Shown here: piece by piece, positions 1-1,730 of the stretch
How positions within the stretch are numbered: the stretch's first letter is position 1
How the letters are laid out: every line of letters begins with the position of its first letter
Assembly (NCBI GenBank): GCA_938015525.1
Contig: CALLPC010000007.1
Coordinates: 62,001-126,000 of the forward strand
Length of the DNA stretch: 64,000 nt
Direction: 5' to 3'
DNA from: an uncultured Dehalococcoidia bacterium
GTDB lineage: Bacteria; Chloroflexota; Dehalococcoidia; Tepidiformales; Tepidiformaceae
Made by a program: the position numbers and the translations under genes
The notes under the pieces: model-generated
Databases searched by the model: none
The model's input: the letters and a program-made list of their open reading frames with translations, nothing else
What the model was told of the DNA's origin: nothing

Positions 1-859
1 CCAGCTGGTAGCTGCCGGCAATAGTGGCGGGGGAAGAGGCCAAGAACTCGTACGAAAACCCGAAGGTCACACGGTCGCTCAGCCGCAGGAAGACTGGCTC
101 CCCGGTGCTGGCCCGCCCGGCGTCGTAGATACTGCCATCGGCAGCGGCGGCGTCGTAGGAAAACTCCCCGCGCTGGGTGTACTCCCATTCGCCCGGAACG
201 GCTTTTTCGAGACCGCGGCTGAAGCCGGCCCATGCGAGAGCGGCGAAACCAACGGCAACGGCGAGCAACAGCACGACGGTGTCCTGCCAGTTGCGATAGA
301 TGGTAGCCATGGGGTGTCCTCCTCCCCGTTGGTGATTGCGCCCGTCGGGACGGGGAGCCGTGGAGCGGGTCCCCGCGGCGCCCCCCAGGAGCCCGGCGAA
401 TGCAACGAACAGCACCAGACCTCCCCAAACGGGGTCCCGAAGGTGCCAGAGCAGCCGGCCGGCGCCGGGCACCCTGAACCAAAGCCGGCCGACGACCTCG
501 CCGCGCCCCGGCCGGTACGAATCGTCGAAATCGTTGTGGTCGCCTCGCAGCGTGTACCGGCCGCTATTCTCCTCGATGATGCGGTGGATGACGTAGCCGA
601 TGTCAGGGTGCCGGTAGGTCACGACGTCGCCGGGCCGATAATCGTCCGCCGGCCGTACGAGGGCGAGGTCGCCCCGTTTCATCCCGGGCTCCATCGAGTT
701 ACCGTTCACGATGACATAGGCGGTCTGTCCGCCCAGCTGTTGAGGAGCGAACAGGATCCATCCGGCGCCCGCCAGCAGGAACAGGAGCGCCGCAGCGGCG
801 GCATGGGGCAGCCGGCGGCAGGACCGGCGGGCAAAGGTCGCTGCAGCGCTCCCGCTCAT
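1..859 (-). CDS. Signal peptidase I (SipW/archaeal/ER type) fused in frame to a DUF5305-like membrane protein; truncated at the window edge
   Basis: Manual minus-strand translation from ATG at 859: MSGSAAATFARRSC...VNGNSMEPGMKRGDLALVRP...YRHPDIGYVIHRIIEE (Ser in NSMEP; His instead of Lys in the general-base region). It continues without a stop through 310 (MATIYRNWQDTVVLLLAVAVGFAALAWAGF...GEWEYTQRGEFSYDAAA) to the window start. Not in the ORF track because it runs off the edge. Confidence 0.75.
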   Translation of the reverse strand, partial: MSGSAAATFARRSCRRLPHAAAAALLFLLAGAGWILFAPQQLGGQTAYVIVNGNSMEPGMKRGDLALVRPADDYRPGDVVTYRHPDIGYVIHRIIEENSGRYTLRGDHNDFDDSYRPGRGEVVGRLWFRVPGAGRLLWHLRDPVWGGLVLFVAFAGLLGGAAGTRSTAPRPDGRNHQRGGGHPMATIYRNWQDTVVLLLAVAVGFAALAWAGFSRGLEKAVPGEWEYTQRGEFSYDAAAADGSIYDAGRASTGEPVFLRLSDRVTFGFSYEFLASSPATIAGSYQL

Positions 860-874
860 CGGTCCCTCCGTAGC

Positions 875-1246
875 CTACTGCGCCGCCACGACGCGCAGCC
901 CCAGGATGGACGAGACCGCGGCCGTCGAGGTGCAGGTGATGCTCGTGCCGGTACTGCATGGCGCCGTCCAGGTGACGCCGCCATCCGTGGAGACGCGAAC
1001 CGTGCCACCGCTCGGCACGGCGGGCGAAATGGTGAAGGTAATGGAACTGAGCTGCTGCGGGTTCACCGCATCGAGGTTGTAGTGGACGTTGGTGATGGTG
1101 TACCCGCTGACGGCAGCCGAGCCGTCGCCCGCCCGGCTCGCGGGAACCGTGTTGGCGGCAGCATACCCGTACACCGCCGCGCCGCTGACTGCCAGGAGGC
1201 CCGCCAGGAGGAGGCGGCGGAACGGAAGGGACAGGAGCCCGCGCAT
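875..1246 (-). CDS. Secreted SipW-dependent/TasA-like small protein, paralog 2
   Basis: MRGLLSLPFRRLLLAGLLAVSGAAVYGYAAANTVPASRAGDGSAAVSGYTITNVHYNLD...LRVVAAQ; N-terminal hydrophobic signal; strong similarity to the neighbouring ORF. Confidence 0.75.
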   Translation of the reverse strand: MRGLLSLPFRRLLLAGLLAVSGAAVYGYAAANTVPASRAGDGSAAVSGYTITNVHYNLDAVNPQQLSSITFTISPAVPSGGTVRVSTDGGVTWTAPCSTGTSITCTSTAAVSSILGLRVVAAQ

Positions 1247-1266
1247 CAGTGTCCTCCCTGCTGGTG

Positions 1267-1296
1267 GGCCGCCCGGGAAACCCGTCCCGGGCGGCC
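1267..1296 (-). other. Strong inverted repeat between the two tandem secreted paralogs (possible attenuator or mRNA stabiliser)
   Basis: ggccgcccggg(1267-1277)/cccgggcggcc(1286-1296): 11-bp perfect stem, 8-nt loop, no T-tract on the minus strand. Confidence 0.6.
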
Positions 1297-1349
1297 GTGC
1301 TGCGGTTCGCTCGGCGTGACCAGCGCCAGGCGCTCGGGGTCCTCGCGTG

Positions 1350-1730
1350 TTACTGGGCGGCGACGACCCGCAGGCTGGTGAACGCGGCGCCGATTGACTG
1401 CGGCGTCGAGAACGTGCACGTGATGGTCGACCCCGTGGAGCAGGCGTTCGACCAGGTCGTGCCGCCATCGAACGAGACGTGCGCCGTGCCGCCTGCCGGC
1501 AGCGCCGGCGAGATGTCGAAAGTGACCGAGTTCGCGGTCGCCGGGTTGGTCGGGTTCAGGTTGTAGTGGACGTTGGAAATCGTGTAGCCGGAGACGGTGT
1601 TGGTGCCATCGCCGGCGTTGGTGGCCGGCACGGTGTTCGTGGCGGCGAAACCAAGCGCCGAAACGGCGACGATGGAGAAGACCGCGATGGCGGCCAGCCG
1701 ACGCGGGCTCCTCAGGGAACGAAAGACCAT
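1350..1730 (-). CDS. Secreted SipW-dependent/TasA-like small protein, paralog 1
   Basis: MVFRSLRSPRRLAAIAVFSIVAVSALGFAATNTVPATNAGDGTNTVSGYTISNVHYNLNPTNPATANSVTF...LRVVAAQ; GGAGGAG Shine-Dalgarno upstream of ATG 1730. Confidence 0.75.
   Translation of the reverse strand: MVFRSLRSPRRLAAIAVFSIVAVSALGFAATNTVPATNAGDGTNTVSGYTISNVHYNLNPTNPATANSVTFDISPALPAGGTAHVSFDGGTTWSNACSTGSTITCTFSTPQSIGAAFTSLRVVAAQ

Follow-up and report, generated by a model that had tools for sequence, protein, structure and literature searches.

A four-gene export operon of Tepidiforma-related Chloroflexota as an apparent, independently arisen counterpart of the Bacillus tapA-sipW-tasA operon

Results

Gene content of the locus

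We analysed a 64-kb stretch of DNA (G000:C7:62001-126000; hereafter the window) from a genome of 2.49 Mb, whose nearest named relatives belong to Tepidiforma (Chloroflexota). The left edge of the window is occupied by a predicted four-gene operon, A-B-C-D, which lies on the minus strand and is conserved across Chloroflexota. Gene A, the first of the operon (1350..1730, minus strand; ATG at 1730, stop codon at 1350-1352), encodes a 126 aa precursor of what family alignments and an AF2 model indicate to be a small secreted beta-sandwich protein; in T. flava YIM 72310 the sequence is 94% identical over this gene. Gene B (875..1246, minus strand; ATG at 1246, stop codon at 875-877) encodes a paralog of A with 123 aa, and a Shine-Dalgarno-like sequence of the GGAGG type precedes the start codon of both. 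The start of gene C (position 859) follows the stop codon of B after 15 nt on the same strand. Gene C encodes a fusion of an S26B signal peptidase with a DUF5305 domain; it crosses the left edge of the window, so that the first 286 of its 528 codons are found within it (1..859, minus strand), while the full-length gene extends over G000:C7:61273-62859.

The first-pass annotation of this DNA had placed A and B, with their strand, their shared motifs and the 15-nt gap to the peptidase gene, exactly as we found them, and it had also suspected further components beyond the left edge. Gene D was found there, after C on the minus strand (G000:C7:60830-61276, equivalent to window positions -1170 to -724), and encodes a mini-RTX protein of 148 aa. 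D begins with a GTG codon that shares bases with the stop codon of C, and the two genes overlap in this way in most of the loci that we compared. It was this comparison that revealed D past C, and we therefore dropped a reading of the locus as a three-gene cassette. Past D, a prephenate dehydratase gene runs in the convergent direction. On the opposite strand, upstream of the cassette, we observed a short ORF close to A that resembles the N-terminal part of XdhC/CoxI-type proteins (2008-2349) and a small TatA/MttA-like protein whose tail is rich in Pro and Ala (2401-2697).

The substrate proteins A and B

A and B are 51% identical over their length. Their resemblance is not due to chance, since a search of their own genome with A matched, apart from A itself, B alone (E 1.6e-34). 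Signal peptides and cleavage sites were placed from the register-aligned consensus of 116 family members. In A, the predicted signal peptide comprises residues 1-29 (1644..1730, minus strand), with a putative cut at G-F-A / A-T-N-T-V-P that was located by the A/G-x-A box and has an aromatic residue at P2; it is followed by the conserved mature N-terminus ATNTVPATNAGDG (residues 30-42; 1605..1643, minus strand), the first half of which is common to B and D. The corresponding features of B are a predicted signal peptide (residues 1-29; 1160..1246, minus strand), a putative cut at G-Y-A / A-A-N-T-V-P and the conserved mature N-terminus AANTVPASRAGDG (residues 30-42; 1121..1159, minus strand). Phe or Tyr was found at P2 in 96% of the family members.

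Two cysteines were present in 107 out of the 116 members, none in 8, three in 1 and a single one in 0. The cysteines are thus nearly invariant and are kept or lost as a pair, and the disulfide that had been guessed at from the paired cysteines of A and B is well supported by the alignment.

The AF2 monomer model of A consists of a five-strand beta sandwich of about 80 residues (block-mean pLDDT 78-91, and 84-91 in most blocks), while residues 22-46 have a pLDDT below 50, leaving the conserved N-terminus unstructured in the monomer. A Foldseek search of the PDB with this model gave nothing significant, the best match being an Ig-like protein (E 0.23), and a profile search of the PDB with the A family returned neocarzinostatin-like matches only (E 0.19). 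A TasA or pilin fold is accordingly not demonstrated for A by fold search of the predicted model. Neither A nor B scores above the cut-off of any Pfam or NCBIfam family. We also considered a BNR/Asp-box (S-x-D-x-G-x-T-W) in both proteins and rejected it as incidental, since its score of 15 bits lies below the cut-off of 27 and most relatives have lost it.

The peptidase C

The S26-fold signal peptidase domain of C spans residues ~40-137 and an extracytoplasmic DUF5305 beta domain residues ~217-413; four transmembrane helices were predicted (16-37, 143-163, 187-214 and 417-444), together with a small cytoplasmic domain. C passes the gathering score for PF00717 and scores 69 bits against TIGR02228 (cut-off 51.85). 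The DUF5305 match (PF17231) reached 30.3 bits with a gathering cut-off of 29, or 31.7 bits for the C-terminal part alone, and the scores of its relatives range from 19 to 70 bits. Catalytic Ser55 (GNSMEP; 695..697), catalytic His92 (VIHR; 584..586), which is the S26B/ER-type general base that replaces Lys, and the conserved S26B acidic residue Asp107 (RGDHND; 539..541), all on the minus strand, were each present in 83 out of 83 C proteins that include the respective stretch. The best PDB fold match was human SEC11A (E 2.5e-5). These features identify C, by its motifs and profile matches, as a Ser/His signal peptidase of S26B, of the SipW/SEC11 class and of archaeal/eukaryotic type. Against the equivalog model of Bacillus subtilis SipW (NF046067) it scored 31.9 bits, below the curated cut-off of 190. 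Three ordinary P-type (LepB-type) signal peptidases are encoded elsewhere in the genome, so the S26B enzyme is an extra one. A search of open-access papers retrieved none mentioning DUF5305.

Two variants of the peptidase gene were observed among the relatives. In one locus (L116:874-3612) the cassette peptidase ends in an FGE-sulfatase-like domain (PF03781), after an extra hydrophobic segment, and in two others (L037, L040) peptidase and DUF5305 are found in separate overlapping frames, which may be a split fusion or a sequencing frameshift.

Conservation of the cassette and dedicated processing

We collected 97 distinct loci using the A/B-type substrate gene as the only query, so that adjacency to a peptidase was not selected for. 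C adjoins an A/B-type gene on the same strand in 92 of these loci, and both C and D are present in 85, several of the remaining loci stopping at contig ends. The hosts are mostly Chloroflexota, namely Tepidiforma and its relatives, Anaerolineae and other groups. A few loci are from Actinomycetota (L102, L119, L124, L140), and in three of these C gave no match to DUF5305. Orphan substrate genes away from a peptidase were found in four cases (L039, L047, L048, L090); their neighbours are metabolic genes and uninformative, and three of the four genomes carry the cassette elsewhere. The paralogs therefore do not occur widely without an adjacent signal peptidase. The first-pass annotation had proposed a minimal module of two substrates and their own S26B peptidase, and the pairing of substrate and peptidase is indeed a conserved unit; its composition is different, however, as the unit consists of one or more substrates, the peptidase-DUF5305 fusion and the RTX protein.

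In two loci (L125, L129) a single contig carries two cassettes in tandem, which suggests that the entire module was duplicated. In another (L038:11539-13999), the genome region of the main cassette also holds a second S26B-like peptidase with a further RTX-like protein beside it, and this second pair gave weak matches to the full-length cassette profiles (34 and 35 bits).

We consider it highly probable, from the gene linkage and the motifs, that A, B and D are processed by C as their dedicated peptidase. The proteins could instead be ordinary secreted proteins cleaved by LepB, with C linked to them by happenstance or surviving as an inactive relic; A/G-x-A boxes are acceptable to LepB in principle, three LepB-type enzymes are at hand, and some of the substrate paralogs lie away from the peptidase gene. 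Such a reading is very improbable given the invariance of the catalytic residues (83/83), the preservation of the linkage in 92 of 97 loci, both within the phylum and outside it, and the aromatic P2 residue in 96% of the substrates. In TasA, whose cleavage site TWA-AFND resists LepB, it is partly the Trp at P2 that hinders this enzyme (PMC10269814).

Gene D and the shared N-terminal tag

D matches the RTX nonapeptide repeats GGxGxDxLx (PF00353) with 28.5 bits (gathering score 23), and copies in relatives reach 36.5 bits (L073) and 108.9 bits (L076). The N-terminus of D is an AATNTVPxT segment as in A and B, with a predicted cut at ASA / ATNTVP, while its mature domain is unrelated to theirs. 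An N-terminal pattern is common to A/B (116 sequences) and D (88 sequences), formed by a hydrophobic stretch, A/G-x-A and A-x-N-T-V-P-x-S/T, and the consensus has the same register in both families (A27 A28 x N30 T31 V32 P33 x T/S35). In profile-profile comparison of A/B with D, residues 1-44 alone aligned, with E 4e-12 and a probability of 97.6%, as against 0.3% for the mature parts.

When a profile of this tag was searched against the own genome (2.5 Mb) at E<=10, it matched A, B and D only; these three had been included in building the profile, and the informative part is that no other genes matched. Among 22 other genomes, 51 of the 56 matches were cassette genes, 2 were orphan paralogs and 3 were marginal. 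The tags of A/B and D from the same locus were more similar to each other (0.541) than those from shuffled loci (0.469), a value that 0 of 5000 permutations equalled, but this comparison is confounded by phylogeny and shared ancestry contributes to the difference.

c-di-GMP domain fusions

C carries a C-terminal, cytoplasmic EAL domain in 9 loci (10 proteins, 153-210 bits; L112, L113, L121, L125, L131, L132, L164, L076, L078) and an HD-GYP domain in another 4 (L096, L097, L109, L114; HD_5 with 118-135 bits and an intact HHExWDGxGYP motif). The C of the window has neither domain; the fusions were found in these 13 relatives, and the C of Ornatilinea apprima is one that has an EAL tail. Several EAL copies look degenerate, lacking the LKID/EGVE catalytic motifs, and may act as sensors only. 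In a tree built from the C core, at least 6 changes between the three states (none, EAL and HD-GYP) are required, and the EAL and HD-GYP proteins are not grouped. The fusion of two unrelated phosphodiesterase families to the same protein suggests that the cassette is coupled to c-di-GMP. A search of the open-access literature for fusions of a signal peptidase with EAL or HD-GYP yielded nothing on this system.

Relation to the TasA and camelysin families

The first-pass annotation had described A and B as TasA-type proteins, a view that did not hold. We compared 28 members of the A/B family with PF12389, TIGR04088 and NF046066 and obtained no match at E<=1, and D had no match to TIGR04088 at E<=0.1. 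Genomes of the own genus gave no match to PF12389 or NF046066 (TasA/camelysin). Two genomes from the same family in which the A/B type is absent (G006, G008) provided a positive control: they carry true TasA-type proteins (PF12389), and these score 22.0 and 21.8 bits against TIGR04088 (cut-off 19). Profile-profile comparison (hhalign) of A/B with these sister-genome proteins gave a probability of 0.8%, and we rejected homology between them on this basis. Since the same models match the sister-genome proteins and do not match A, B or D, the cassette is a parallel system whose substrates, as far as profiles can tell, lie outside the TasA/camelysin and TIGR04088 families. In two loci of sister genomes without the A/B type (L179:8110-11602, L180:2286-3953) we observed TasA/camelysin-type substrates (TIGR04088) directly ahead of a short SipW-like S26B peptidase. 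Gene content thus indicates two parallel SipW-type systems within one Chloroflexota family.

A canonical TasA/camelysin-SipW system that has diverged until the similarity of A and B to TasA was lost would share with the cassette its peptidase superfamily, its tandem small beta proteins and a cleavage site (GFA-ATNT) that resembles TWA-AFND, and true TasA-type substrates do lie beside a short S26B peptidase in sister genomes. We regard this origin as improbable, because the models that recognise those sister-genome proteins failed on all 28 members and the profile-profile probability was very low. The predicted structure points the same way: the model of A has a five-strand core of ~80 residues, as opposed to the larger jelly roll of TasA, and TasA was absent among the fold matches listed.

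Discussion

A model for export and surface assembly

The best explanation of these data, to which we give a probability of about 0.55, is a self-contained operon for export and surface assembly that works like tapA-sipW-tasA and is made from different proteins. A, B and D would be exported via Sec and cut by the dedicated peptidase C, in A between A29 and A30 (GFA / ATNTVP), so that all three mature proteins would start with AxNTVPx(S/T). The DUF5305 domain, which is likewise predicted at the outer face of the membrane, would most likely receive or position these clients. A and B would be disulfide-closed mini beta-sandwiches, and since the monomer model leaves their conserved N-terminus without structure, they would most likely polymerise or dock by donating this N-terminal strand. 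D, as a putative Ca-binding beta-roll that has the same N-terminal strand and no A/B-type sandwich, could serve as a TapA-like initiator, a cap or a calcium-dependent anchor. In some lineages, the EAL or HD-GYP domain at the cytoplasmic end of C would tie export or processing to c-di-GMP, in whichever direction, as would be expected of a biofilm-matrix system.

Donor-strand assembly of fibres is a plausible part of this model, at somewhat less than even odds. Its main rival holds that C processes A, B and D and that the products stay soluble or surface-associated without polymerising, for example as calcium-dependent adhesins or parts of an S-layer-like coat, with AxNTVP serving as a recognition site of the peptidase and nothing else. 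The tag does include the cleavage site together with the start of the mature protein, it is confined to the cassette and sits on two unrelated mature domains, and no fibre fold was detectable for A by fold search. Signal peptidases, however, seldom depend on six or more conserved positions downstream of the cut, and the phosphodiesterase fusions point to a biofilm matrix. Moreover, in TasA and TapA the mature N-terminus that the major protein has in common with the accessory one is the donor strand: in B. subtilis, SipW processes both proteins, TasA polymerises via an N-terminal donor strand, and TapA, whose N-terminal residues resemble that strand, nucleates the fibres (PMC9674648). Taken together, we judge a recognition-only tag to be on the unlikely side. 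Donor-strand assembly may be extended to a new class of filament, in which the subunits and a Ca-binding RTX cap would share one exchangeable donor strand that is at the same time the tag of the peptidase, and in which EAL or HD-GYP tails would place export under c-di-GMP control at the cleavage step; this extended version is rather doubtful.

Implications

If the model is true, it would provide a defined candidate matrix or filament system for Chloroflexota, a large phylum of monoderms most of which are uncultured, and the logic of tapA-sipW-tasA (a private peptidase, a subunit and a partner with a common N-terminus) would have been assembled on at least two occasions from different components. 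The fusions of signal peptidase and phosphodiesterase would suggest that matrix export is coupled to c-di-GMP at the processing step, and DUF5305, so far without known function, would gain a testable role. The cassette is present in cultured hosts, namely Tepidiforma flava, Ornatilinea apprima and Thermanaerothrix daxensis. Searches of the open-access literature on SipW in Chloroflexi and on surface structures of Tepidiforma returned no description of it.

Comparison with known systems

The closest known system is tapA-sipW-tasA, with which we group its calY/BsaA-type relatives, and the cassette has the appearance of a counterpart to this Bacillus biofilm-fibre operon that arose independently. 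Both are small operons of monoderm surfaces with a dedicated S26B Ser/His peptidase, a small beta protein that is probably structural, an accessory protein with a subunit-like mature N-terminus and an aromatic residue near the cut. They differ in that no homology to TasA was detected for A and B, which moreover carry a disulfide pair, in that an RTX calcium-binding beta-roll takes the place of TapA as accessory protein, and in that the peptidase is fused to DUF5305, in some lineages also to EAL or HD-GYP.

In the TIGR04088/PF12389 systems of related genomes (L179, L180), the substrates likewise precede an S26B peptidase that is homologous to C (65 and 41 bits with the C-family profile). The tag there is AxFSDTAT..GNxFSTGTLDL, whereas that of the cassette is AxNTVPxSxAGDG..VSGYT; moreover, their peptidases are short and without DUF5305, and no RTX-type D was found in those two loci.

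The donor-strand filaments of archaea consist of Sec-exported beta-sandwich subunits that are processed by signal peptidase I and have an N-terminal tail (PMC9715654). The Sulfolobus threads (Saci_0406) and the bundling pili of Pyrobaculum thus resemble the cassette in their exported beta-sandwich with an N-terminal tail, and also in an adjacent gene that was proposed as a cap, but we found no sequence relation, and neither a DUF5305 peptidase nor an RTX partner is described there.

Finally, D scores above the gathering threshold of the PF00353 RTX proteins and differs from them in its size of 148 aa, in its Sec signal with the AxNTVP tag and in having no catalytic or toxin domain; by its layout, D would be a client of the Sec pathway and not a type I secretion substrate.
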